DNA of 64,000 nucleotides from Nocardioides sp. CFH 31398 (GTDB taxonomy: Bacteria > Actinomycetota > Actinomycetes > Propionibacteriales > Nocardioidaceae). The notes beneath the pieces were generated by a model that made no database searches, had not been told where the DNA came from, and saw only the letters and a program-made list of their open reading frames with translations. The position numbers and the translations under genes were made by a program. This document shows, one piece after another, positions 20,074-43,196 of this stretch (positions are counted from its first letter, which is position 1; each line of letters opens with the position of its first letter). Where the stretch lies: the NCBI RefSeq assembly GCF_022436705.1, contig NZ_JAKUHT010000003.1, positions 1 through 64,000 on the forward strand, given 5' to 3'.

Positions 20074-20129
20074 GTGCTGCGTCGACCGCGGTCGACGTCA
20101 GGTCCGGATCGTCGTCCTGACCTCTTCGG

Positions 20130-20216
20130 CGGTGGCGGAGGGATTTGAACCCTCGGTGGGGTCGCCCCCACAAACGCTTTCGAGGCGTTCTCCTTAGGCC
20201 GCTCGGACACGCCACC
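20130..20216 (-). tRNA. tRNA-Ser(CGA)
   Basis: Read on the minus strand, an 87-nt class II tRNA begins GGTGGCG and ends CGCCACC plus a G discriminator, giving a perfect 7-bp acceptor stem. The anticodon stem AACGC/GCGTT holds a seven-base loop CTCGAAA with anticodon CGA (plus strand 20180-20182). The long variable arm (TGTGGGGGCGACCCCACCG) is the serine hallmark, and GGTTCAAATCC forms the T arm. CCA is not encoded. CGA reads UCG codons, which are frequent at this GC content. Confidence 0.95.
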
Positions 20217-30950: not shown

Positions 30951-31246
30951 GGGCGGCCCTTGGCGCCGGACGCCGGACGGCGGCGCGAGAACATCTGCAG
31001 CATCCGGTCGGTCACGACGAAGCCGCCGACCATGTTGATGGTGGCGAGCACGATCGCCAGGGTGCCCAGCGCGACGAACACCGGCTCGTCCGTCGACCCG
31101 GTGACGAGGATCGCGCCGAGCAGGATCACGCCGTGGATCGCGTTCGCGCCCGACATCAACGGCGTGTGGAGGGTCGAGGAGACCTTCGAGATGACCTCGA
31201 CGCCCACGAACACGCTGAGCACGAGGATGGTCAGGAGCTCGATCAC
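30947..31246 (-). CDS. pntA2: NAD(P) transhydrogenase subunit alpha 2 (membrane part)
   Basis: A 99-residue membrane polypeptide with three to four hydrophobic helices, corresponding to the C-terminal domain II piece of a full-length PntA. VFVGVEVISKVSSTLHTPLMSGANAIHGVILLGA is the conserved family stretch. The GTG start at 31246 overlaps the stop of pntA1 (GTGA). The separate alpha-1/alpha-2 arrangement is common in actinobacteria and alphaproteobacteria. Confidence 0.93.
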   Translation of the reverse strand: MIELLTILVLSVFVGVEVISKVSSTLHTPLMSGANAIHGVILLGAILVTGSTDEPVFVALGTLAIVLATINMVGGFVVTDRMLQMFSRRRPASGAKGRP

Positions 31247-32475
31247 AGGGAACCGCCTTGCAGGACCGCTCGGGTCATCTCGTGGACGACGACGCCGTCC
31301 TTGACGACGCAGGACTTCGCCACGACCTCGTCCTCCATGTCGGGGGCGAACCGCAGCACCCTCTCGCCGGGCGGGCCCGGGGGCCCGGGCGGCGGCGGGG
31401 TGTCCGCGGCGGCCTCGTCGCCGGGCCCGGCCGCGCCGGCGCCCGGGTCGGCGGCGGGCGGCTCGTCGGTGGTCATGAGGGTGACGAGGGCGAGCAGGTT
31501 CGCGGCGTACAGGCGGGAGGCGGGGTCGGGCATCTGCGAGGGGACGTTCTCCCCGCCCCACACCTGGGCGTCGCCCACGCGGACGACCCGACCGGGCTCG
31601 GAGCGCTCCACGTTGCCGCCGGACTCCGCGGCGAGGTCGACGACGACCGAGCCGGGGCTCATCGCCTCGACCATCTCGCGGGTCACCAGCAGCGGCGCGG
31701 GTCGGCCGGGGACGGCAGCGGTGGTGATGAGGGCGTCGGCGGCCGCGACGTGCGGGGCGAGCAGCGCGCGCTGGCGCTCCGCCCGGTCGGTGGTCATCTC
31801 CTTGGCGTAGCCGCCCTCGCCCGAGAGGTCCTCGAGGTCGAGGGTGATGGCCTCGGCACCCATCGAGCGGATCTCCTCGGCGGCGGCCGGCCGGACGTCG
31901 TACGCCTTGACGACCGCGCCGAGCCGCTTCGACGTCGCGATGGCCTGGAGCCCCGCGACACCGGCGCCGAGCACCAGCACCTGCGCGGGCTGGACGGTGC
32001 CGGCGGCGGTCATGTTGAGGGGGAAGAACCGACGCAGCAGGCCGGCGGCGACGATCGCCGAGCGGTAGCCGGCGACGAGGGCCTGGGACGACAGGGCGTC
32101 CATCGACTGGGCCCGGGAGATGCGCGGCAGCAGCTCCATCGCCCAGGCGTCGACCCCGCAGTCGCGCAGCTCGCCGATCGTGTCGGCCGCGGACGTCGGC
32201 AGGAACGACACGACCGCGGACCCGCGGGGGATGCGCCGCACCGTCGTCGGGGCGAGGGGCTGGACGGCGAGGACCAGGTCGGCACCCTCGAGCGCCTGGG
32301 GGTCGAGGACGGCGCCCGCGTCGGCGTACGCCTCGTCGTCGAACCCGGCCGGGATGCCGGCGCCCGGCTCGACGTGCACCTCGGCGCCCATCGCGACGAG
32401 GCGGCCCGCGACCTCGGGCACCACCGCGACCCGCGCCTCGTCCCGGCGCGTCTCCCGCGCCACCGCGATCCTCAC
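31243..32475 (-). CDS. pntA1: NAD(P) transhydrogenase subunit alpha 1 (NAD-binding part)
   Basis: A 410-residue NAD(H)-binding domain I, related to alanine dehydrogenase. Motifs: RIAVARETRRDEARVAVVPEVAGRL at the start, RISRAQSMDALSSQ, the dinucleotide fold QVLVLGAGVAGLQAIATSKRLGAVVKAYDVRPAA, and TTAAVPGRPAPLLVTREMVEAM. A Pro/Gly-rich linker (PPPPGPPGPPG) precedes a short C-terminal segment. The GTG at 32475 has a TAGGTT -10 hexamer 7 nt upstream (leaderless), so this is the operon's first gene. Confidence 0.94.
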   Translation of the reverse strand: MRIAVARETRRDEARVAVVPEVAGRLVAMGAEVHVEPGAGIPAGFDDEAYADAGAVLDPQALEGADLVLAVQPLAPTTVRRIPRGSAVVSFLPTSAADTIGELRDCGVDAWAMELLPRISRAQSMDALSSQALVAGYRSAIVAAGLLRRFFPLNMTAAGTVQPAQVLVLGAGVAGLQAIATSKRLGAVVKAYDVRPAAAEEIRSMGAEAITLDLEDLSGEGGYAKEMTTDRAERQRALLAPHVAAADALITTAAVPGRPAPLLVTREMVEAMSPGSVVVDLAAESGGNVERSEPGRVVRVGDAQVWGGENVPSQMPDPASRLYAANLLALVTLMTTDEPPAADPGAGAAGPGDEAAADTPPPPGPPGPPGERVLRFAPDMEDEVVAKSCVVKDGVVVHEMTRAVLQGGSL

Positions 32476-32524: not shown

Positions 32525-33151
32525 TCAGCCGCGCACCACGTCCAGCAGCAGGGACGGGGCGACCTCGTCGAGGGCGTCGCGCGACTGCGAGAAGGTGTGG
32601 AACCGCAGCCGCCCGACCGACAGCCACTCGGTCGAGAGCCGGACGACGGTCCGGCCGCGCACGCCCGGGGTCCGCTCCACGGTGATGCGCTGGGGCTCCA
32701 CCCGCTCGCTCTCCCCGGACTCCGGGTCGACGGCGAACAGCTTGGCGGGACCACCCGCGTTGCCGAGGAAGAAGAACCAGGTCCGGCCGCTGGCCGGGTG
32801 CTCGAGCATGGTCAGCTGCTGCTGCCTGCGGACGCCGGTCGAGCGGCCGTCGCGCAGCTCGGCCCACTGCACGGTCACGACGATGTTGTGCCCGGCCTGC
32901 CACGGGGTGCGGTACGTCGCCCTCAAAATGTCGGCGTGACGGTTGGCCTCGGCCCCGCGGTCCTCCCCGAACGGGTGCTGCACGTCGCCGCGCGGGTCCT
33001 TGACCAGGTCGTGGTAGCGCGCGGCCGCCCGCTGCAGGCCGGCGCCCGGGTCGGACGCCGGGTCCGCCGCCGACGCGGGCGGGGCGAGACCGAGCAGACC
33101 GCTGAGCAGCACGAGGGCCGCCGGGCCGAGGAGACGCTGACGCAGAGGCAC
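32525..33151 (-). CDS. exported protein of a DPRGD paralogue family, copy 1
   Basis: A 208-residue predicted secreted protein of a family I do not recognise. The GTG start gives a clear signal peptide (basic start, LLGPAALVLLSGLLGLA core, ASA cleavage). The mature part carries the family blocks: KDPRGD, then ATYRTPWQAG, VQWAELRDGRSTGVRRQ, a strand near FFFLGNAGG, VRLSTEWLSVGRLRF and the terminal LLLDVV. No catalytic motif, lipobox or membrane anchor is visible. The last gene of the cluster, 98 bp after copy 2. A predicted all-beta fold is inference. Confidence 0.75.
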   Translation of the reverse strand: MPLRQRLLGPAALVLLSGLLGLAPPASAADPASDPGAGLQRAAARYHDLVKDPRGDVQHPFGEDRGAEANRHADILRATYRTPWQAGHNIVVTVQWAELRDGRSTGVRRQQQLTMLEHPASGRTWFFFLGNAGGPAKLFAVDPESGESERVEPQRITVERTPGVRGRTVVRLSTEWLSVGRLRFHTFSQSRDALDEVAPSLLLDVVRG

Positions 33152-33249
33152 GAAACGGTCCCCATCCTGCTCGACGGGCGACCCCACGTCGCCCTGCGCG
33201 CACTCTTGCACAGCGCACGGGTCGGCGACGAGGGTGACGTCGGCCCGGT

Positions 33250-33855
33250 TCAGCGCGGCGTGCCGACGTACAGGGGTCGTGACGTCGCGACAGGATCGCG
33301 CGGGCGGGAGATCGGCCCCCCGCTCCACGAGGTGAACGAGGTCCTCCTGCGATCGACGCGGCGCATCCACTCGGTCGACATCCGCAGGTCCATCCGGCCG
33401 TTCGCCCCGAAGTCGTAGTCGACCTCGACCCGGTCGGGCCTGATGACGCGGACCTCCTCGTCACCGGAGTAGTCCTCGAGCTCGACGCGTCCGTCGTTGC
33501 CGACGTACACCGTCCACGACCCGTAGCCGAACCGGTCACCGAACTCGGTCCACAGCAGCTGGTCGGGACTCCCCCTGCGCCGACCGTCCACCAACCGGAC
33601 CCACCGGGCCGTGATCCGTAGCTCACCGCCGACCCTGAAGGGGGTCCTGTAGCGGACCCTGGTCAGGTCCGCCGTCGACTCGTCCCCGCCCGGACGGACC
33701 ACGTCCCCGCGCGGGTCCTCGACGACCTGGACGTGCGACGGCGTCGCCGGCTCGTCGGCCGCGGTCGCCGTCCCTGGTGCCGTGCCCGGCACCAGGGCCA
33801 CCGCGAGCAGGGCAGGCACGGCGAGCAACCGGGCCGTCGGTCGGATGGTGCGCAT
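33250..33855 (-). CDS. exported protein of a DPRGD paralogue family, copy 2
   Basis: A 201-residue predicted secreted protein. Signal peptide: MRTIRPTARLLAVPALLAVA region with an A-T-A-A cleavage area. Family blocks are EDPRGDVV, VRYRTPFRVGGELRITARWVRL, VYVGNDGRVEL, RPDRVEVDYDFGANGRMDLRMSTEWM and the terminal PLYVGTPR. The RRQ block of the other copies reads SPDQLLW here, so this copy is more divergent in the middle. It follows copy 3 after 92 bp. Confidence 0.75.
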   Translation of the reverse strand: MRTIRPTARLLAVPALLAVALVPGTAPGTATAADEPATPSHVQVVEDPRGDVVRPGGDESTADLTRVRYRTPFRVGGELRITARWVRLVDGRRRGSPDQLLWTEFGDRFGYGSWTVYVGNDGRVELEDYSGDEEVRVIRPDRVEVDYDFGANGRMDLRMSTEWMRRVDRRRTSFTSWSGGPISRPRDPVATSRPLYVGTPR

Positions 33856-33947
33856 GCGGGTCCTCGTCTCCTCCGGGCGCCCGAGCGCGCCCCCTTCACC
33901 CTCTACGCCGCCGGCGACGGATCGGTTGCCCGGCCCGGCGACGCGCG

Positions 33948-34613
33948 TCAGCGCACCGGTCCGACGTCCAGCAGCGGCGAGTACGGCGATCGGTCGACGG
34001 CCCGCCGGGAGAACGCGGCGCTCACGGCGTACACCCGCGGTGCCGTCAGCCACTCCGAGGACACGGTCACGGTCATCGTTCCGCCGCGGCCGAACTGGCG
34101 ACGGACCGACACCTCCTCCGGGCGCACCCGGGACGGCTCCCCGTCGACGTACTCCCGCACGACCACCCGGTCGTCGTGGTTGGTCGCGAACACGGTCCAG
34201 AACCGCTCGCCGGGCCCGCTCAGCAGCGTGAGGAACGCCTGGCGGCGTACGCCGGGGCCCCGGGCGTCACCCAGCGACGCCCAGCGGCTGCGGAGCACCA
34301 GGTCACCTCCCCGGCGTGCCGGCGTCCGGTAGGAGACGGCGGTCAGGTCCGCGAGGTCCAGGTAGGTCCGGGGCCCACGCAGCACCACCGACGTCCCCCG
34401 CTCGGCGTCACCGCGCGGGTCCCCCTTGGACCAGCTCCGCACCGGCGACCCGACCGTCTCGTCGTCCTCGGGCGCCCCGGCGGCGGCCGACGCGACCCAT
34501 CGCTCCACGGCCGAGGGCGGGTCGGCGGGGTCGGCCTGCACCGGGGCGGTGAGGAGGCCGAGGGCCACCACCCCGCCCACCAGGGGTGCGGCCAGCATCC
34601 GGGCCCGCCTCAT
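33948..34613 (-). CDS. exported protein of a DPRGD paralogue family, copy 3
   Basis: A 221-residue predicted secreted protein. A signal peptide (MRRARMLAAPLVGGVVALGL region) is followed by a longer acidic spacer, then KGDPRGD, LADLTAVSYRTPARRGGDLVL, SRWASLGDARGPGVRRQAF, VFATNHDDRVVV, RPEEVSVRRQFGRGGTMTVTVSSEWL and the terminal PLLDVGPVR. Its ATG overlaps the stop of copy 4 (34610-34613), so the two are translationally coupled. Function unknown. Confidence 0.78.
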   Translation of the reverse strand: MRRARMLAAPLVGGVVALGLLTAPVQADPADPPSAVERWVASAAAGAPEDDETVGSPVRSWSKGDPRGDAERGTSVVLRGPRTYLDLADLTAVSYRTPARRGGDLVLRSRWASLGDARGPGVRRQAFLTLLSGPGERFWTVFATNHDDRVVVREYVDGEPSRVRPEEVSVRRQFGRGGTMTVTVSSEWLTAPRVYAVSAAFSRRAVDRSPYSPLLDVGPVR

Positions 34614-35236
34614 CGCAGCGGCCCCACGTCGAGGGGCTTCGAGGCGCGCACGCGGTCGAACGCGATGTTCCGTCGTCCCGAGGTGGCGGTGTTGAGGAAC
34701 GTGAGGGACCGGGCGCCGAGCCACTCGGTGGACAGGATGAGATCGACGGTGCCGTCACGCCCGAAGTCGCGACGCATCTCGACCTTCTCAGGGTTCACGC
34801 GGGACTGGCCGGTGCTGGTCGCGAACCTCTGGACGACCACCCGGTCGTCGGTGTTGCGGACCGTGACGTAGAAGGCCAGGTCCCGGGTCACGCGGAGGGT
34901 CGTGAACTGGAGCTGGCGTCGCGCACCCCCGTCACGGGCGTCGGCCAGGTACGCCCAGGTGGTGGTGATCCGCAGGTCGCCGTCGACGCGGGACGGGGTC
35001 TTGTAGCGGGAGCGTGTGATGTCGGCGAGGCGCTCGTACGAACGGGGTCCGCCGCGCAGCGGGCCCGGGACCTCGCCGTCACCGCGCGGGTCGCGGACGA
35101 CGTCGACCCGGCGGGGCTCGTCGCCCCGGGGGGTGGCCATCTCGACGGCTGTCGTCGCGGTGGCGCTCGGCGCCGGGGCCGGCCCGAGCGCGAGCAGCCC
35201 GGTGGCGAGTGCGGCCACCACGCGAGTCGCCCTCAT
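34610..35236 (-). CDS. exported protein of a DPRGD paralogue family, copy 4
   Basis: A 208-residue predicted secreted protein: signal peptide (MRATRVVAALATGLLALG region), RDPRGDGE, LADITRSRYKTPSRVDGDLRITTTWAYLADARDGGARRQ, VTVRNTDDRVVVQRF, NPEKVEMRRDFGRDGTVDLILSTEWL and the terminal PLDVGPLR. It overlaps copy 5 and copy 3 by 4 bp each (ATGA). It is closest to copy 5 by the shared YKTPSR and PLDVG wording. Function unknown. Confidence 0.78.
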   Translation of the reverse strand: MRATRVVAALATGLLALGPAPAPSATATTAVEMATPRGDEPRRVDVVRDPRGDGEVPGPLRGGPRSYERLADITRSRYKTPSRVDGDLRITTTWAYLADARDGGARRQLQFTTLRVTRDLAFYVTVRNTDDRVVVQRFATSTGQSRVNPEKVEMRRDFGRDGTVDLILSTEWLGARSLTFLNTATSGRRNIAFDRVRASKPLDVGPLR

Positions 35237-35913
35237 CGCAGTGCCCCCACGTCTAGCGGCCGCGAGCGCCGGACCCTGTCGAGCGCCTCCTCGCCGGACC
35301 CGGAGATCCCCTGGGTGAAGAACCGGACCCGGTCGGCGTCCAGCCACTCCGTCGACATCAGGACGTCGGTCGTGCCCCCGGGTCCGAAGGTGCGCTGCAC
35401 CCGGACCTTGTCCGGCCGGACCCGGTCGAAGTCCTCGGTGAGGTCGTAGAGCCGGATCCGGTCGTCGGCGTTGGTGACCACGAAGGCCCAGAACCCGTCG
35501 TCGTCGACGTCGTCGAGGTAGGTCACCTGAATCTGGCGCCGGACGGCGGGTCGGCTGGCGTCGCGGAGGTCCGCCCAGGTGTTGGTGACGCGAAGGTCGC
35601 CGCCGTCGCGCGACGGCGTCTTGTAGCGGAGCCGGGTGAGGTCGGCCAGACGCGTGTAGGGCCGGGGACCGCGCGCGAGCCCGGTCCGCTCGGCGTCACC
35701 GCGGCGGTCCGTCACGACGTCCAGCCGGCGGTCCTCACCGGGCGCGGCGCGGGGAGGCACCGACGACGGCAGGGCGGGCGCCATGGCGCGCAGCTCGGCG
35801 GCGCTCGGGCCCTCGCCGGCGGCCGAGGCCGGGGCTGGTACCAGCCCGAGGGCCAGCAGGCCCGCGGAGAGGAGGGCGGCGGCGCGGGTGGCGCGGCCTG
35901 TGGACACGGTCAT
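35233..35913 (-). CDS. exported protein of a DPRGD paralogue family, copy 5 (first gene of cluster)
   Basis: A 226-residue predicted secreted protein: signal peptide ending ASA (about 31), an Ala/Pro-rich spacer, then TDRRGDAE in place of DPRGD, LADLTRLRYKTPSRDGGDLRVTNTWADLRDASRPAVRRQ, VVTNADDRIRLY, RPDKVRVQRTFGPGGTTDVLMSTEWL and the terminal PLDVGALR. I start at the ATG at 35913; the same frame is open far upstream but runs through the operator and into the decayed copy. A 20-bp palindrome lies 77 bp upstream. Confidence 0.78.
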   Translation of the reverse strand: MTVSTGRATRAAALLSAGLLALGLVPAPASAAGEGPSAAELRAMAPALPSSVPPRAAPGEDRRLDVVTDRRGDAERTGLARGPRPYTRLADLTRLRYKTPSRDGGDLRVTNTWADLRDASRPAVRRQIQVTYLDDVDDDGFWAFVVTNADDRIRLYDLTEDFDRVRPDKVRVQRTFGPGGTTDVLMSTEWLDADRVRFFTQGISGSGEEALDRVRRSRPLDVGALR

Positions 35914-35989
35914 GGTTCCCCCTGGGGTCTCCGACGGGGTCGCACCCCCTCGTGTGGCCGTCACCATGCCCCAGCCCGCCGACAGCAAA

Positions 35990-36009
35990 CCACTGGTCCA
36001 GACCAGTGG
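35990..36009. promoter_or_regulatory. 20-bp palindromic operator upstream of the DPRGD cluster
   Basis: CCACTGGTCCAGACCAGTGG: two perfect 9-bp arms around a CA centre. The TGGTC...GACCA core is the kind recognised by FadR-subfamily GntR repressors (family knowledge). No GntR gene is in the window, so the regulator would act in trans. This is the strongest dyad in the 369-bp stretch 35914-36282; the other content is the decayed gene copy. Confidence 0.65.
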
Positions 36010-36045
36010 GTGTGCTCGCCCGGCGCGGCGGGTCCGGCGCTCAGT

Positions 36046-36240
36046 CGCTCGACGGCAGGGCGAGCGGTCGGTGACGTCGGTGACCCGCAGCTCGTGCACG
36101 TGGCGAGCCCACCCGCTCTCGACCCGGACGGAGAACACCTGTCGGCGGGCGCCGGGCTCGCTGCCGTCGCTCAGCGTGCCCCATCGGCTCACGAGGCGGG
36201 GGTCGACGCCGGGAGCCGGCGTGGTCCCAGTCGCGGGGAC
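36046..36240 (-). pseudogene. decayed sixth copy of the DPRGD paralogue family
   Basis: Translating the minus strand in the frame of copy 5 gives TPAPGVDPRLVSRWGTLSD followed by GSEPGARRQVFSVRVE. This lines up with SRWASLGDARGPGVRRQAF of copy 3 and the matching block of the others. No start, signal peptide, DPRGD block or C-terminal STEWL/LDVG block is present, so only the middle of a copy survives. It sits between the MMPL gene end and the operator. The borders are approximate. Confidence 0.55.
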
Positions 36241-36282
36241 GGCCCGGGGTGCAGGTCTGGACCGCTTCCGCCCACGTGCCCG

Positions 36283-38484
36283 TCAGCGCGGCGAGGCCGC
36301 CGGCGTCGTCCGCCCGGTCGGTCGCGGCCCCTCGTGGTGGCCGTGACGCTCCCACCAGCGGCGCAGCGGGCCCGGGGCGTACCAGTTCCAGTCGCCGAGC
36401 AGCCGCATCGTCGCCGGCACGAGGAGCGCGCGGACGACGGTGGCGTCGATGAAGAGGGCGACGATCATGCCGACGCCGATCATCTTGATGAGCACGATCC
36501 CGCTGGTGCCGAAGGCGCCGATGACGACGCCGAGCAGGAGCGCGGCGCTCGTGATGATCTTGCCGGTCTTCTGCAGCCCGACCGCGACGGCGTCGGTGTT
36601 GGAGGCGCCGGTGTCCCACTCCTCGCGCACGCGGGACAGCAGGAACACCTCGTAGTCCATCGACAGGCCGAACAGGACCGCCAGCATGAGGATCGGGTTG
36701 GTCGCGTCGAGGAACCCCAGGGGCTCGAAGGCGAGCAGGCCGGCCAGGTTGCCGTCGGCGAAGATCCAGGTCACGACGCCGAAGGCCGCGGTGATCGACA
36801 GGACGTTCATCAGCACGGCCTTGACCGGCAGCACCACGGAGCCGAACGCCAGGAACAGCAGCACGAGCATCACGGCCACCATCACCGTGACCATCGCGGG
36901 CAGGCGGTCCGCGAGGCTGTCGATGGTGTCGACCGACTCGGCGGTCACCCCGCCGACCAGGGCCTCCCCGTCCTCGGGACGCACGTCGCGCAGGTGCCGC
37001 AGGAGGTCCTGGGAGGCCTGCGACTGACCGTTGCCCGACCAGCTCGCACGCAGCAGGGCGGCGCCGCCGTCCTCGGACGTCGTGTCGAGGACCTGGACGT
37101 CGACCGGCGTCGCGCCGTCGGCGCCCTCTCCCCCCACCTCGCCCAGCGCGTCGACGTACGACGCCAGCGAGGTCTCGTCGACCCCCGTCACGACGATCTC
37201 GGCGGTCGCGGTCTCCGCGCCGAACTCCTCGGCGAGCGTCGCGGCGGCGACGCGGGCCGGGGAGTCCTCGGGCAGGATCCGGTAGTCGGCGGTGCCGAAC
37301 CGCGCCCCCAGGAAGGGCGAGGCGACGACCAGCAGCGCCGCGGTGAGCACGACGACCACCACGAGGGGACGCCGCATCACCGCGCGGGCGACGCGGGCCC
37401 AGCCGCCGTCCGGGGAGTCCACGGACACGGGGCGGCCGCGCCGCCACGGCAGGCGACCGGCGTCGACGCGCGGGCCGAGGAGGCACAGCGTCGCGGGCAG
37501 GACGGTGATCGCGACCAGGACGGCGACCAGGACCGCGACGACCCCGCCGTACGCCACGGACGACATGAAGGCGAGCGGGAACACCAGGAGGCTGGCCAGC
37601 GCGGCCGCGACCGTCAGGCCGGAGAACAGGACCGTGCGCCCGGCGGTGACGACCGTGCGGTGGGTCGCGGCGGCCGGGTCGAGGCCCCGGGCGAGCTCCT
37701 CGCGGAAGCGGCTGACGACGAAGAGGGCGTAGTCGATCGCCAGCCCGATGCCGAGCAGCGTGATGACGTTGACGGCGAACACCGACACCTCGGTGACCTG
37801 GGTCAGCAGCCGGGTCAGCGCGAGCCCGCCCACCGTGGCGAGGAGGCCGACGAGCACCGGCATCGACGCGGCCACGGCGCTGCCGAAGAACAGCAGCGCG
37901 AGCATCAGCACGATCGGCAGGGAGATGATCTCGGCGCGCTTGAGGTCCTCGGCGGTCGTCTCCGTGACGTCGTCGAACACCGACCACGGTCCGGCGAGGC
38001 GCACCTCGAGTCCGGCGGCCCCCGGGCCGTCGGTCAGCGGGCCCTGCACCTCGTCGTACGACTCCATGAGCTCGCCCTGGCCGTCACCGGCGAGGGAGAT
38101 CACGACCTGGCCCCACTCGCCGTCGGTGCTGACGAGACCGGACCCCGGCGGCACCTCGGCGTACGACGTCACCTTGACGACGGCGTCCTCGGGGAGCCCG
38201 GCGACGGCATCGGCGACCGCCGCGTCGAACGCCGGGTCGCCCGGGCCCGCGCGGCCGTCCTCGGCCCGGTAGAGCGCGAGGACGTCGGCGTCGGAGTTGC
38301 CGAACAGCGCCCGCTCGACCTCGCCCTGCCGCTCGCTCTCGGACCCGTTGACGCCGAAACCGCTGTTCGACAGCGAGCCGAACACGCCGACGCCGTACAG
38401 CCCGGCGACCAGGGCCACGAGCAGGCCGGAGAGCAGCACCGACCGGGGGCGGCGCGCGACGAGGTACCCCCAGCGGTCGAGCAC
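36283..38484 (-). CDS. MMPL family RND-type exporter
   Basis: A 733-residue membrane transporter with the MMPL layout: TM1, an extracytoplasmic domain (about 40-180), five TMs including VFAVNVITLLGIGLAIDYALFVVSRFREEL (the Asp-Tyr proton-relay pair), a second extracytoplasmic domain, and a second TM bundle with MLAVLFGLSMDYEVFLLSRVREEW. Both Asp-Tyr relays are kept, so it should be proton-driven. Cargo of such actinobacterial proteins is usually a lipid or hydrophobic compound. GTG start. The C-terminal tail is short and basic. No regulator or lipid-synthesis gene is adjacent. Confidence 0.93.
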   Translation of the reverse strand: MLDRWGYLVARRPRSVLLSGLLVALVAGLYGVGVFGSLSNSGFGVNGSESERQGEVERALFGNSDADVLALYRAEDGRAGPGDPAFDAAVADAVAGLPEDAVVKVTSYAEVPPGSGLVSTDGEWGQVVISLAGDGQGELMESYDEVQGPLTDGPGAAGLEVRLAGPWSVFDDVTETTAEDLKRAEIISLPIVLMLALLFFGSAVAASMPVLVGLLATVGGLALTRLLTQVTEVSVFAVNVITLLGIGLAIDYALFVVSRFREELARGLDPAAATHRTVVTAGRTVLFSGLTVAAALASLLVFPLAFMSSVAYGGVVAVLVAVLVAITVLPATLCLLGPRVDAGRLPWRRGRPVSVDSPDGGWARVARAVMRRPLVVVVVLTAALLVVASPFLGARFGTADYRILPEDSPARVAAATLAEEFGAETATAEIVVTGVDETSLASYVDALGEVGGEGADGATPVDVQVLDTTSEDGGAALLRASWSGNGQSQASQDLLRHLRDVRPEDGEALVGGVTAESVDTIDSLADRLPAMVTVMVAVMLVLLFLAFGSVVLPVKAVLMNVLSITAAFGVVTWIFADGNLAGLLAFEPLGFLDATNPILMLAVLFGLSMDYEVFLLSRVREEWDTGASNTDAVAVGLQKTGKIITSAALLLGVVIGAFGTSGIVLIKMIGVGMIVALFIDATVVRALLVPATMRLLGDWNWYAPGPLRRWWERHGHHEGPRPTGRTTPAASPR

Positions 38485-38513: not shown

Positions 38514-39155
38514 TCAGTCCACGAGGATGCCGGCCTCGGCGGCCATCGCCGGCGCCAGGTCGAGCAGCTGCGCCGTGCCCAGGGTCGCCCCTCGCAGCCC
38601 GCTGGGCGGGCTGACCTCGCCGAGGCGGGCGCCGCGGAGGTCGACGTCCTTCAGCCGGGCACCGCGGACCGTGAGGGTCTCGACCGTGCAGCGCTCGAAG
38701 GTCGCGCGCTCGAGGACGGCGTCGGCGAGGTCGAGCTCGCCGACGGTGCAGTCCTCCACCACCAGGTCGGAGACGGTCGAGCCGCGCAGGTTGAGGTAGT
38801 CGACCTTGGTGTGGGCCACGCGCACCGAGGAGAGGGTCGACCCGTGCGCGCTCAGCGCCCCGAGCCGGGAGCCGAGCACCTCGCTGTCGCGCCAGACGCC
38901 CTCCGCCAGCACGAGCTCGGGGGCGTCGAGGGTGTCCAGGCGCAGGTCCAGCAGGCGGCAGCGCTCCAGGCGGGTGCCGTCGGCGCGGGCGCCGAGCAGC
39001 TCGGACTCCTGGAGCGTGACGCCGTGCAGGGTCCGGCCGGACAGGTCGAGCCCCGAGACGCGCAGGCCGTCGAGGCCGTCGTCCAGGTCGACGTCCGCCG
39101 AGTCGGTCTCGGCGAGGTCGACCAGGCCGGGCGGCGTGCGGCGGGGCCGCTTCAC
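38514..39155 (-). CDS. pentapeptide-repeat-like protein
   Basis: A 213-residue protein whose body is a series of short repeats with a Leu or Phe every five residues (LSGRTLHGVTLQESELLGARADGTRLERCRLLDLRL, then LNLRGSTVSDLVVEDCTVGELDLADAVLERATFERC), the pattern of a right-handed quadrilateral beta-helix. No signal peptide is seen, so it is cytosolic. Some pentapeptide proteins mimic DNA and protect gyrase, but nothing here proves that role. The GTG start overlaps the thpR stop (GTGA), so the two genes are coupled. Confidence 0.85.
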   Translation of the reverse strand: MKRPRRTPPGLVDLAETDSADVDLDDGLDGLRVSGLDLSGRTLHGVTLQESELLGARADGTRLERCRLLDLRLDTLDAPELVLAEGVWRDSEVLGSRLGALSAHGSTLSSVRVAHTKVDYLNLRGSTVSDLVVEDCTVGELDLADAVLERATFERCTVETLTVRGARLKDVDLRGARLGEVSPPSGLRGATLGTAQLLDLAPAMAAEAGILVD

Positions 39156-39727
39156 GCGGCCGCTCCGTCCAGCGGCAGCGTCGCGACGACCTCGTGCCGG
39201 GCGCCGCGGCGCGGCCCCTCCCCGAGGTGGGAGGCGACGACCTCGACCTCGTCCGCGCGCCAGTCCGGGCCGGCGTACGCGTCGAGGAGCTTGACCCAGT
39301 CCGAGACCTGGCTCGGCCGGCCGAGCCGGGCGAGCGTCAGGTGCGGCCGGAAGCGGTCGCCGTCCACCACCGCGCCGGCGCGGGAGCAGGCGCGGCGGCA
39401 GGCGGCCGCCAGGTCGTCGAGCCCGGCGCGGTCGCCGGCGAGGTCGCCCCACAGCACCTTGGCGCCGTCCGCGTGCGGGAACGCCCCGCCCCCGTCGACG
39501 CGCAGGTCGAGCGGGGCCCGCCGGGACGCGGCCTCCCCGACGCGCTCGACCAGGTCCTCCACCCGCCAGTCGTCGACGTCGCCGCAGAACGCGAGGGTGA
39601 GGTGCCACTGCTCGACCGGCGTCCACCGCCACCCGGTGGACGGCGCCGCGTCGCGCCGGGGCTCGAGGAAGGTCGCGAGGTGCTCCACCACCTCCGGGGC
39701 CGGTCGCAGGGCGACGAAGATCCGCAC
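39152..39727 (-). CDS. thpR: RNA 2',3'-cyclic 3'-phosphodiesterase
   Basis: A 191-residue 2H phosphoesterase with the two catalytic HxTx motifs: WHLTLAF (His42, Thr44) and FRPHLTLAR (His129, Thr131). The start MRIFVALRPAPEV is typical of ThpR/LigT, which opens 2',3'-cyclic phosphates on RNA ends. The GTG at 39727 lies 6 nt after a TACCGT -10 hexamer. It is divergent from the flavoprotein gene. Confidence 0.93.
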   Translation of the reverse strand: MRIFVALRPAPEVVEHLATFLEPRRDAAPSTGWRWTPVEQWHLTLAFCGDVDDWRVEDLVERVGEAASRRAPLDLRVDGGGAFPHADGAKVLWGDLAGDRAGLDDLAAACRRACSRAGAVVDGDRFRPHLTLARLGRPSQVSDWVKLLDAYAGPDWRADEVEVVASHLGEGPRRGARHEVVATLPLDGAAA

Positions 39728-39800
39728 CCCGCGACGGTAGTCCGTGACGGGGACGCTCGGCGGGGACTACCCCTCGTGGCCTGCGGATACCGTGACGCGC
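39728..39800. promoter_or_regulatory. divergent promoters for thpR and the F420-type flavoprotein
   Basis: The same hexamer TACCGT serves both sides: on the minus strand at plus 39734-39739, 6 nt before the thpR GTG, and on the plus strand at 39788-39793, 7 nt before the ATG at 39801. Both transcripts would be leaderless. Confidence 0.5.
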
Positions 39801-40268
39801 ATGGCCCGCAACATCGCGACGACCGACCACGTCGACCTGGAGGGGCTGCTGGACTTCGTCCGGCCCCGCCACCACATGGTGCTCATCACCACCCGCAAGG
39901 ACGGCGCCCCGCAGTCCTCCCCCGTCACCGGCGGGGTCGACTCCGAGGGCCGGATCGTCATCGCGACCTACCCCAAGCGCGCCAAGACCGCGAACGCGCG
40001 GCGCAACGCCACGGGCAGCGTGCTGGTGCTCTCCGACGAGTTCGACGCCGCCTGGGTGCAGGTCGACGGGGACATCGAGGTCCTCGACGTGCCCGACGCG
40101 GTCGAGCCGCTGGTGGAGTACTTCCGCTCCATCGCGGGCGAGCACAGCGACTGGGACGAGTACCGGCAGGCCATGGTCGACCAGGGCAAGTCCCTCATCC
40201 GGCTGACGCCGACCCGCTGGTCGCCCATCGCGACCGGCGGCTTCCCGCCGGAGCTCGCCGACGACTAG
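39801..40268 (+). CDS. PPOX-class F420-dependent oxidoreductase
   Basis: A 155-residue split-barrel flavin/deazaflavin-binding protein of the pyridoxamine-phosphate-oxidase-like superfamily. HMVLITTRKDGAPQSSPVTGGVDSEGRIVIATYPKRAKTANARRN matches the Rv1155-type TIGR03618 pattern, including the basic residues that bind the F420 tail. The C-terminal LIRLTPTRWSPIATGGFPPEL is also typical. Physiological substrate unknown. It starts at the ATG at 39801, next to its -10. Confidence 0.88.
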   Translation: MARNIATTDHVDLEGLLDFVRPRHHMVLITTRKDGAPQSSPVTGGVDSEGRIVIATYPKRAKTANARRNATGSVLVLSDEFDAAWVQVDGDIEVLDVPDAVEPLVEYFRSIAGEHSDWDEYRQAMVDQGKSLIRLTPTRWSPIATGGFPPELADD

Positions 40269-40325
40269 GCCGTCGTCGTCCCAGCACCGGGACACGACAC
40301 ACGCGCGCAACACGGGCGCGCGACC

Positions 40326-43196
40326 ATGGCGGCCATGAGCTCCACACGCCAGGACCGCCCCGACGTCGACGCGCTGCTCGAGGCCGACCGCCGCGACCTC
40401 GACCCGGCGCTCTTCGCCGGCGGGGTGTCGTCGGAGGACTCCCACACCGTCCTGCGCGCCTCGGTACGCCGGCTCGCGGCGCTGCTGGGCGAGGCCCTGC
40501 GCCGCCACGAGGGCGACGACCTGCTCGACCTCGTCGAGCGCGTGCGGCGCCTCGCGCGGCAGCCGGACGACGCCGAGCTGCGCGCCGTCCTCGACGAGGT
40601 GGACGCCCCCACCGCCGTCGTCCTGGCCCGCGCGTTCACCGGCTACTTCCAGCTCGCGAACGTCGCCGAGCAGCTGCAGCGCGGGCGCGAGCTCGAGGCC
40701 GGCGAGGTCGGGCCGCTCGCCGCGACCGTCGACCGGATCGGGGCCGCCCTCGGCGACGGGTCCCTGACCCCCGACCTGCTCGCCGAGATCCTCGATCGTG
40801 TCGAGTACCGCCCCGTCTTCACCGCCCACCCCACCGAGTCCAGCCGACGCTCCGTGCTGCGGCTCCTCGCCCGCATCGCTGGCGTCGTCGACGACCTCGA
40901 CGACCCCCGGCGCTCGGGCCGGTACGCCGAGCGCGACGAGCAGCGTCTCGCCGAGCTGGTCGACCTGCTGTGGCAGACCGACGAGCTGCGGGTGGTCAAG
41001 CCGCAGCCGCAGGACGAGGCCCGCACCGCCGTCTTCTTCCTCCGCTCCCTGGCACGCGACGTGGTGCCCGAGGTGATGGCCGAGCTCGACCACCGGCTCG
41101 CGGCGATCGACGTCCACCTGCCCGCGACGGCGCGGCCCCTGCGGTTCGGGTCCTGGGCCGGCGGCGACCGCGACGGCAACCCCCACGTCACCTGCGCGGT
41201 CACGCTCGACGTGCTGCGCCTGCAGCACTCCGCCGGTCTCGCCGAGCTGGTCGAGCTCGTCGAGCAGGCGCTGGCGGAGATGACGCCGTCCACGCGCGTC
41301 GTCCGGGCCAGCGAGGCCCTGCTGGCGAGCCTCGAGCGCGACGCCGAGGCCCTGCCCATCACCTGGGAGTCCGTGCGCCGCCTCAACGCGGAGGAGCCCT
41401 ACCGGCTCAAGCTCAGCTTCGTGCGGGTGCGGCTGCTGCGCACCCGCGACCGCCTCGCGCACGGCACCCCGCACGAGCCGGGCCGCGACTACGCCGGCAT
41501 CGGCGAGCTCGTCGAGGACCTGTCGCTCGTGCGCGAGTCGATGCTCGCGGCCGGCGACCGCCTCACCGGCGACGGGACCGTGCTGCGCCTGCTCCGCACC
41601 GCCGTCACCCTCGGCGCCGGGCTCGCCACCCTCGACGTCCGCGAGCACTCGGGGCGCCACCACCGCGCCCTCGCCGAGCTGTACGACCGCCTCGGCGAGG
41701 ACGGCACGCCGTACGCCGACCTTGACCGCGAGCAGCGCATCGAGCTGCTGTCGGCGGAGCTCGCCTCCCCGCGCCCCCTCACCGGCGCGTCGCTGGGCGG
41801 GCCGGGCGGGCTCGACGGGCTGGACGAGGACACGGCCGGTTGCCTCGACCTGATGCGCACGATCCGGACCGCCCTCGACACCTACGGCCCGGAGGTCGTC
41901 GAGACCTACATCGTCTCCATGACCCACGACGTCGACGACCTGTACGCCGCCGTCGTCCTCGCCCGGGAGGCCGGGCTCGTGGACCCCGGCTCGTCGTCGC
42001 GACCCGCGACCGCCCGGATCGGCTTCGCGCCGCTGTTCGAGACCGTCGCCGAGCTGGAGATCGCCGGACCGCTGCTGGAGAAGCTGCTGGGCGACCCGTC
42101 GTACCGCCGGCTCGTGGCCGCCCGGGGCGACGTGCAGGAGGTGATGCTCGGCTACTCCGACTCGTCGAAGGACGCCGGGATCGCGGCCTCGCAGTGGCAG
42201 ATCCACCGCGCCCAGCGGGCGCTGCGCGACATCGCGGCCCGCCACGGGGTGACGTTGCGACTGTTCCACGGCCGCGGCGGGTCGGTCGGTCGCGGCGGCG
42301 GGCCGACGGCGGAGGCGATCCTGTCGCAGCCGAACGGCACCCTGGACGGCCCGATCAAGATCACCGAGCAGGGCGAGGTGGTCTCGGACAAGTACGCCCT
42401 GCCGACGCTCGGCCGGCACAACCTCGAGTCCGCGCTGGCGGCGGTGGTGGAGGCGTCGGTCCTGCACCGGACGTCCCGGCTGCCCCACGACCTCCTGACG
42501 ACCTGGAACGACACGATGGACGAGGTCGCCGCCGCCGGGCAGGAGGCGTACCGCGCGCTGGTCCGCCACCCCGACCTGCCGTCGTTCTTCACCACGGTCA
42601 CCCCCGTCGACGAGCTCGGCGGCCTCAACATCGGCTCGCGGCCCTCGAAGCGCCCCGGAGGCGTCGGCGGCATCGAGGACCTCCGCGCGATCCCCTGGGT
42701 CTTCGGCTGGACGCAGGCGCGGATCATCCTGCCCGGCTGGTACGGCGTCGGCTCCGGCCTCGTGGCCGCGCGGGAGGCCGGGCGTGCGGACACGCTGCGC
42801 GAGATGGTGCGGCACTGGCCGTTCTTCCGCACGTTCCTGTCGAACGTGCAGATGACGCTGGCGAAGACCGACCTCGACATCGCCGCGACGTACGTCGACG
42901 CGCTCGCCGCACCCGACCAGCGCCACCTGTTCGACACCATCCGCGCCGAGCACGCGCGCACGGTCGAGGAGGTGCTGGCGGTGACCGGGCAGTCGACGCT
43001 GCTCGAGTCGGCGCCCACCCTGCGCCGGACGCTCGAGCTGCGCGACTCCTACCTGGCGCCGCTGCACGCCCTGCAGGCCTCGCTGCTGCGTCGTACCCGG
43101 CAGACGCCGGAGGGCGCGGAGGTCGACCCCGACCTCCGCCGCGCGCAGCTCCTCACCATCAACGGCATCGCGGCGGGTCTGCGCAACACGGGGTGA
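40326..43196 (+). CDS. ppc: phosphoenolpyruvate carboxylase
   Basis: A 956-residue anaplerotic enzyme that carboxylates PEP to oxaloacetate. The catalytic His is His168 in FTAHPTESSRRSVL. Further active-site blocks are GSWAGGDRDGNPHVT, MLGYSDSSKDAGIAASQW, FHGRGGSVGRGGGPTAEAILSQP followed by KITEQGEV, and GSRPSKR...RAIPWVFGWTQAR near the C-terminus. The sequence ends in RNTG, the conserved terminal motif. ATG at 40326 or 40335 (MAAM); the difference is three residues. Length fits bacterial PEPC. Confidence 0.97.
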   Translation: MAAMSSTRQDRPDVDALLEADRRDLDPALFAGGVSSEDSHTVLRASVRRLAALLGEALRRHEGDDLLDLVERVRRLARQPDDAELRAVLDEVDAPTAVVLARAFTGYFQLANVAEQLQRGRELEAGEVGPLAATVDRIGAALGDGSLTPDLLAEILDRVEYRPVFTAHPTESSRRSVLRLLARIAGVVDDLDDPRRSGRYAERDEQRLAELVDLLWQTDELRVVKPQPQDEARTAVFFLRSLARDVVPEVMAELDHRLAAIDVHLPATARPLRFGSWAGGDRDGNPHVTCAVTLDVLRLQHSAGLAELVELVEQALAEMTPSTRVVRASEALLASLERDAEALPITWESVRRLNAEEPYRLKLSFVRVRLLRTRDRLAHGTPHEPGRDYAGIGELVEDLSLVRESMLAAGDRLTGDGTVLRLLRTAVTLGAGLATLDVREHSGRHHRALAELYDRLGEDGTPYADLDREQRIELLSAELASPRPLTGASLGGPGGLDGLDEDTAGCLDLMRTIRTALDTYGPEVVETYIVSMTHDVDDLYAAVVLAREAGLVDPGSSSRPATARIGFAPLFETVAELEIAGPLLEKLLGDPSYRRLVAARGDVQEVMLGYSDSSKDAGIAASQWQIHRAQRALRDIAARHGVTLRLFHGRGGSVGRGGGPTAEAILSQPNGTLDGPIKITEQGEVVSDKYALPTLGRHNLESALAAVVEASVLHRTSRLPHDLLTTWNDTMDEVAAAGQEAYRALVRHPDLPSFFTTVTPVDELGGLNIGSRPSKRPGGVGGIEDLRAIPWVFGWTQARIILPGWYGVGSGLVAAREAGRADTLREMVRHWPFFRTFLSNVQMTLAKTDLDIAATYVDALAAPDQRHLFDTIRAEHARTVEEVLAVTGQSTLLESAPTLRRTLELRDSYLAPLHALQASLLRRTRQTPEGAEVDPDLRRAQLLTINGIAAGLRNTG

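Follow-up and report, generated by a model that had tools for sequence, protein, structure and literature searches.

The stretch of DNA studied here (hereafter the window) comprises 64,000 nucleotides (nt) of Nocardioides sp. CFH 31398 (contig NZ_JAKUHT010000003.1, positions 1 to 64,000), an organism with a genome of 4.42 Mb. Its minus strand carries a tandem array of five paralogous genes, which are predicted to encode exported proteins of 201-226 amino acids (aa). In the reading order of the array (c5, c4, c3, c2, c1), the genes are:

35233-35913, minus strand: copy 5 (c5), 226 aa; TDRRGD variant; first gene of the array
34610-35236, minus strand: copy 4 (c4), 208 aa; ATGA link to copy 5; modelled with AlphaFold2
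33948-34613, minus strand: copy 3 (c3), 221 aa; ATGA link to copy 4
33250-33855, minus strand: copy 2 (c2), 201 aa; RRQ block changed to SPDQ; modelled with AlphaFold2
32525-33151, minus strand: copy 1 (c1), 208 aa, GTG start; predicted secreted beta-sandwich protein; last gene of the array

The initial annotation had described five adjacent exported paralogues, with copies 5, 4 and 3 joined by ATGA overlaps, and the gene coordinates, the N-termini and the alignment confirmed this description. The overlaps lie at 35233-35236 (c5/c4) and 34610-34613 (c4/c3), and the remaining genes are separated by 92 nt (c3-c2) and 98 nt (c2-c1). All five N-termini are basic and hydrophobic and mostly end in A-x-A, resembling Sec signal peptides as judged by eye without SignalP. 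When the five copies were aligned, c2, c3, c4 and c1 were 40-51% identical to c5, and 29 columns were invariant, among them DxRGD, AD, Y.TP, W..L.D, Q and S.EW, so the copies do share sequence blocks. The block order once claimed for all copies holds for these columns but not throughout. N.DDR is intact only in c3-c5 (NDGR in c2, NAGG in c1), FG..GT is confined to the same three copies (FGANGRM in c2, PGVRGRT in c1), and the terminal LDVG block is changed to LDVVRG in c1 and LYVGTPR in c2.

The array was present in two of 209 genomes of the genus, at the identical location in both. The second genome is that of uncultured Nocardioides sp. isolate 3-306 (contig NZ_CANLDB010000005.1), hereafter the sister species, in which five copies stand in the identical order between the same flanking genes, encoding an MMPL family transporter upstream and the alpha-type NAD(P) transhydrogenase (pntA) downstream. 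With copy 4 as query, matches at E <= 0.001 were obtained in 2 of 215 genus genomes. A profile of the mature proteins matched 10 of 209 at E 0.1, only the own genome and the sister doing so better than E 0.005, and the full profile matched 22 of 209 at E 0.01, of which 20 were partial only, at E 3e-8 or worse. Many partial matches spanning just the first 30-100 profile positions look like signal peptides and were excluded as members. No full-length match beyond the two genomes was among the matches listed for 341 genomes of the family, and none besides the own genome among those listed for 293 genomes of the order; these searches scored about 9-15 candidates per genome, and misses are possible. 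The 1.5 kb around the pntA match in 29 other genus genomes (one locus being shorter, and ten of the pntA matches only 44-47% identical) contained the array in no case and a distant MMPL match in one.

The ten array proteins, five from each species, are arginine-rich and mostly basic. None contains cysteine, and the calculated isoelectric point, signal peptide included, is at least 9.5 in nine of them, the exception being sister c2 (4.8). Two tryptophans, W67 and W145 in the numbering of mature c4, are invariant.

The earlier statement that no domain could be recognised in these proteins holds after searches of Pfam, NCBIfam, PHROGs and PADLOC. The last three gave no match for the five array proteins, and Pfam gave only a sub-threshold hit to DUF4350 for c3 (E 0.048) and no CWB2 or SLH wall-anchor module in any copy. 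A search of PDB sequences returned only Scabin, aligned to positions 2-60, the signal-peptide part (E 0.024). Copy 4 had no match in plasmids, alignment A4 had none in viral contigs, and Rfam had none within the window. We found no paper recognisable as concerning this family, which is a weak negative for a family without a name.

The duplications are old. Copies c1, c2 and c3 pair one to one with sister orthologues at 60, 62 and 61% identity and with tree support of 100/99 or better, and are at most 48% identical to any other copy across the species. The orthology of c4 and c5 was indistinguishable (51-55% identity), and the sister's c4 and c5 group together with support of 81/84. That c1-c3 each have their own sister orthologue means that the copies have diverged since duplications which, at least for these three, predate the split of the two species. 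Overall, orthologues are about 52-62% identical, compared with 84% for MMPL and 89% for PntA in the flanks. The ratio of nonsynonymous to synonymous substitution rates (dN/dS), by a simple Nei-Gojobori count that is crude at this G+C content, was 0.51, 0.51, 0.52, 0.76 and 0.64 for c1 to c5, compared with 0.25 for MMPL and 0.20 for PntA. The copies evolve faster than their neighbours, but with dN/dS on average below 1. The DPRGD stretch and the strands at 60-67 and 136-142 are best kept, and the strands at 106-112 and 150-159 least. It had been proposed that the duplications reflect selection for dosage or diversity. We rejected dosage because the copies within the window are too diverged from one another (35-52% identity); diversity fits the old, diverged orthologues better.

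A decayed sixth copy had been noted near the MMPL gene, and profile scores confirmed it:

36037-36222, minus strand: remnant of a sixth copy, about 50 residues, matching the profiles over the middle block only (W..L.D....GARRQ)

In whole-genome scans the remnant matched the mature profile at E 3.8e-4 and the full profile at E 0.0047. Its frame scored 23.2 bits against the mature profile, whereas the best of 2000 shuffles reached 10.6. No DPRGD block, signal peptide or TEW block was seen by eye in its frame. The sister locus, with about 98 nt between MMPL and its c5, is too short to hold such a remnant. Local duplication with one decayed copy is thus borne out by the paralogy and by these scores. 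A lone array-type paralogue elsewhere in the own genome (C30:414041-414457) has no in-frame signal peptide and a TAG within the extended match, and looks decayed.

The array proteins were first presented as an undescribed DPRGD family. The family is indeed undescribed, but it does not stand alone. Weak matches of the array profiles in Nocardioides genomes included secreted proteins with a D..GD...DI opening and a Cys pair in the second half; the other weak matches were dismissed as signal-peptide-only or out of frame. The array alignment (A5) was compared with hhalign to an alignment of seven such relatives (A6; probability 96, E 4e-9) and to one of 49 mature relatives that includes no array member (A8; probability 94, E 1e-7). 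A6 matched 68 of 98 genus genomes, with 15 matches in the own genome. When the A8 rows were made into a hidden Markov model, all ten array members (8.4-21.7 bits) ranked above all 210 shuffled or reversed decoys (5.7 bits or less). No Pfam family occurred in more than three of the 49 A8 rows (best E 0.0027), no NCBIfam family scored better than E 0.02, and a PDB sequence search with A8 gave three weak, unrelated chains (E 0.2-1.8).

A tree of 24 rows separated the array type (TEW, no Cys) from the Cys type with support of 100/99 and grouped the ten array copies together in 80% of its bootstrap trees (79/72). Since cysteine is missing from all ten array proteins, the array is a separate branch of this DxxGD...DI family. 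Two to four family frames stand side by side in 8 of 30 Nocardioides loci (L128, L135, L137, L141, L142, L123, L129, L132), a count that omits a ninth locus with overlapping frames (L126), and the broad family as a whole seems prone to tandem growth. Judging from these alignments, the placement of the array family as a branch within a broad and undescribed family of extracellular domains is well supported.

Outside Nocardioides, the A8 profile matched 10 of 295 genomes sampled from the phylum. A Pfam scan of nine of these proteins detected CWB2 repeats after the domain in six and SLH repeats in one. The other two carry neither, one having sub-threshold immunoglobulin-like (Ig-like) matches (L153) and one no match at all (L156), and the tenth protein (L152), a 301-residue frame, was read by eye only. 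CWB2 and SLH modules attach proteins to wall polymers, according to the available part of PMC5817068. Given its fusion to these modules, the broad domain belongs to the cell surface, at least in the CWB2- and SLH-fused proteins. An alignment of nine domains from other Actinomycetota genera, from which L156 was omitted (A9), matched A8 with hhalign probability 98.7 (E 4e-16). A5, A6 and A9 share three invariant aspartates, two of them spaced four residues apart and one in the DI block; the last of these is also invariant in A8.

AlphaFold2, given ten sequences, predicted a beta sandwich for both copies modelled. The model of mature copy 4 had a predicted local distance difference test score (pLDDT) of 84.8 and a predicted template modelling score (pTM) of 0.80; that of copy 2 had 78.2 and 0.76; both were nearly all beta. 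In VIA-align, 4jpq ('putative carbohydrate-binding protein') ranked first for copies 4 and 2 (Z 10.3 and 10.1 over 147 and 144 residues), while 2ivf_C ranked second for copy 4 (Z 10.3, 159 residues) and third for copy 2 (Z 9.2, 151 residues). The antibody rows shown reached Z 9.4 and 9.3 over 111-120 residues and left out the N-terminal strand. The available part of PMC4846438 describes the DOMON-type fold, which binds haem or sugar, as an Ig-like sandwich with 10-11 strands, groups 2IVF and, less so, CBM9-2 with it, and reports a possible Asp-rich metal site for the DOMON domain of DBH. A metal site could likewise lie at the Asp triad of the array family.

Upstream of the array we noticed a palindrome, and a degenerate one lies further upstream:

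35992-36007, minus strand: palindrome ACTGGTCTGGACCAGT, one mismatch to the published 16-bp consensus of the DasR-responsive element (dre, the DasR operator); 78 nt separate it from the ATG of copy 5
36251-36266, no strand assigned: degenerate palindrome GGTCTGGACC, four mismatches to the dre consensus by eye; right after the MMPL stop and before the remnant

The sister carries ACTGGTCTAGACCACC at the same place, inside a conserved upstream stretch, and each of ACTGGTCTGGACCAGT and ACTGGTCTAGACCACC differs in one of 16 positions from A(G/C)TGGTCTAGACCA(G/C)T. This is a Streptomyces consensus, given for dre in the available part of PMC4398421, which also lists dre sites at similar distances upstream of chitinase and chb genes in Streptomyces. 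The Bacillus regulator NagR binds GTGGTCTAGACCAC, which has the same core (PMC4333415, available part). Position 35992-36007 is the only place in the window within three mismatches of the pattern. The motif TGGTCTNGACCA occurred in 16 of 179 loci examined, all of them stretches of the two array loci. In the window the palindrome falls between MMPL and copy 5, and in the sister it overlaps the stop codon of MMPL; a separate promoter for the array is therefore probable. From its sequence and position the palindrome is likely an operator; a DasR-like protein may be the regulator, though we consider this doubtful. The degenerate palindrome may once have served as operator for the sixth copy, now lost.

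In 1.64 Mb of the own genome, window included, two sites had one mismatch to the pattern, one had two and seven had three. The palindrome GGTCTAGACC occurs four times in this 1.64 Mb, and outside it precedes 3 of 13 other family genes of the own genome, at two tandem pairs; two of these three sites may derive from a single event through duplication. The four unselected GGTCTAGACC sites (L213:11317, L226:8649, L233:8680, L250:10948) lie about 70-125 nt upstream of same-strand genes, three of which encode secreted proteins by eye. Read in the same way, the genes after three of these sites encode a peptidase-like secreted protein, a lipoprotein and a large secreted protein, and the remaining site is followed by a DJ-1-like/transporter gene pair. 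They possibly mark a small cell-surface regulon.

The flanking genes and other features of the window are:

36283-38484, minus strand: MMPL family transporter gene (PF03176, E 1.1e-82); upstream neighbour, also in the sister species
31243-32475, minus strand: alpha-type NAD(P) transhydrogenase gene, pntA (PF01262, PF05222); downstream neighbour, also in the sister species
38514-43067, minus strand: frame of 1517 codons with pentapeptide-repeat matches only, all sub-threshold
20128-20216, minus strand: tRNA-Ser (CGA)

The last 71 codons of the window's pntA recur at 100% identity on another contig of the assembly (C14:4493-4705), perhaps as an assembly overlap.

Our preferred reading, which we hold tentatively and with somewhat less than even confidence, is that the array forms a single operon whose diverged, secreted products bind the wall or glycans. 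It starts from the computed gene structure, the family link, the conserved locus, the fast divergence, the palindrome in both species and the wall-anchor fusions elsewhere. The five cysteine-free, single-domain proteins of the DxxGD...DI family, with their predicted beta-sandwich fold, would be exported by the Sec route, as their putative signal peptides suggest, and would be retained in or near the cell wall. There they may bind glycans, such as peptidoglycan, wall polymers or chitin-like polymers of N-acetylglucosamine (GlcNAc), through a DOMON/CBM9-like sheet, and each copy might be tuned to a different target. All five genes would be transcribed from one promoter, located upstream of copy 5 and equipped with a candidate GntR/HutC-type (dre-like) operator.

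Several results weigh against this reading. For the putative glycan ligand, loops and strands are about equally conserved (66 vs 60% identity), so there is no binding-loop pattern and antibody-like variable loops were rejected. Under the rule of VIA-align (Z within 1), 4jpq and 2ivf_C tie with antibodies, and their longer coverage is the sole argument for placing them above. Foldseek, run with copy 4, returned antibodies and other Ig domains in its top 50, with template modelling scores of at most 0.43 by query length. No CBM9_1 (PF06452) match was found with Pfam, and hhalign of A5, A8 and A9 with 15 CBM9_1 domains gave probabilities of 0.2, 0.1 and 0.1. A5 did not match A9 significantly when compared directly (probability 1.3, E 0.04), and the link from the array to CWB2 and SLH proteins runs only through the Nocardioides relatives. 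The family test is itself partly circular and not wholly independent, since all seven A6 rows and two more A8 rows were first found with array profiles and the other 40 A8 rows were found through A6.

Further adverse points concern the palindrome, which was first noticed by eye and for which the near-exact match and the presence in both species are the sole arguments. At three mismatches or fewer, the window count of 2 compares with a shuffle mean of 1.3 and was reached by 38 of 100 shuffles. In 844 kb of the own genome, the counts at two, three and four mismatches were 0, 2 and 43, compared with 1, 3 and 46 in one simulated sequence, which had no site at one mismatch. GGTCTNGACC was found in the 400 nt before the domain in only 4 of 68 family genes from all genomes, and no GlcNAc or chitin gene was recognisable after the four unselected GGTCTAGACC sites. 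Crude, insensitive patterns detected no HutC-type regulator in 1.58 Mb of the own genome; the scan gave one GntR-like candidate, which by its length is not of the HutC type. The window palindrome could also fold as a terminator hairpin, but that of the sister could not, folding no better than its shuffles, of which 179 in 200 equalled or surpassed it.

Four other explanations were weighed against wall or glycan binding. The copies might form a structural or protective coat, S-layer-like or matrix, that covers or cross-links the wall without binding a specific sugar, their divergence reflecting relaxed constraint. The fusion of domain relatives to SLH and CWB2 elsewhere and the raised dN/dS (0.51-0.76) are consistent with such a coat, and arginine-rich, mostly basic proteins could adhere to anionic wall polymers. 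The Asp triad, however, is conserved all the way to the wall-anchored relatives, and the Tyr and the EW pair throughout the array type, suggesting that a site has been preserved, and Pfam found no anchor module in the array proteins; we take a coat to be rather unlikely, though it deserves serious attention. The proteins might also be diversifying decoys at the cell surface, or recognition proteins that act against phages or competing bacteria. Fast divergence of the orthologues beside slower flanks fits this, as do tandem copies of which one was lost and tandem clusters that recur across the broad family. PADLOC and PHROGs gave no match, however, dN/dS stays below 1 and no variable-loop pattern was seen, and a role of this kind seems quite improbable.

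Extracellular electron-transfer proteins of the haem or redox DOMON type would fit the alignment of the two models, over 159 and 151 residues, with 2ivf_C, the DOMON-like chain of ethylbenzene dehydrogenase. Yet Met, His, Lys and Cys, the candidate axial ligands of a haem-binding DOMON domain, are all absent from the columns of A5 that are invariant or nearly so, and the ten array proteins have no Cys at all, which leaves haem binding very improbable indeed. The array proteins might instead be accessory factors of the MMPL transporter that handle or carry an exported lipid or glycolipid. The transporter gene stands directly upstream in both species, but members of the broad family were found in 68 of 98 genus genomes, and the palindrome between MMPL and copy 5 points to a separate promoter; we give this proposal very little credence. 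It had been suggested that the adjacency to MMPL may be incidental. The adjacency is shared by the sister species, and the 29 other genomes showed no array and one distant MMPL match near pntA.

Wall or glycan binding, our preferred reading, can be extended, although we judge the extension improbable as it stands. Nocardioides may have repeatedly amplified, in tandem, a large Actinomycetota family of extracellular ligand-binding sandwich domains, giving each species its own lectin-like repertoire, some of it controlled by a dre operator that senses GlcNAc. If true, the cell would adjust its glycan-binding coat to the chitin or wall sugar available. If the glycan reading is true, the array would show how soil actinobacteria diversify surface binding; if it is false, the family still merits an entry in the domain libraries. 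This report gives a first outline of a common Actinomycetota surface domain that is unnamed in the libraries searched, with its signature, predicted fold, wall-anchor links and tandem habit. Five 'hypothetical proteins' thereby become a testable set, together with a promoter that has a defined candidate operator.

Compared with known systems, the array shares with the DasR regulon, whose dre operators control chitin and GlcNAc genes, an upstream palindrome one mismatch from the consensus. It differs in that no DasR gene or dre-controlled nag gene was located here and that the other such sites precede unrelated genes. The DOMON/CBM9-like superfamily (2IVF, the CDH cytochrome, CBM9-2 and the DBH DOMON domain) has an Ig-like sandwich, and 2ivf_C and 4jpq align over most of both models, but the array has neither profile similarity to CBM9_1 nor a conserved haem ligand. 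The array family also has a conserved Asp-rich site, possibly comparable to the one reported for the DBH DOMON domain (PMC4846438, available part). In the Actinomycetota surface proteins anchored by CWB2 or SLH, a relative of the domain stands ahead of the anchors, whereas the array proteins have no anchor module and no cysteine, and the direct profile match was not significant. The unnamed secreted Nocardioides proteins of A8, with the signature DxxGD...DI...C...P.sCLg.PrWVrvG, resemble the array in signal peptide, Asp motif, length and tandem clusters; they have a conserved Cys pair and a P..C motif, where the array copies have TEW and no Cys. The array is thus of a known kind, extracellular sandwich binding domains in a paralogue array, and not a new kind of system.

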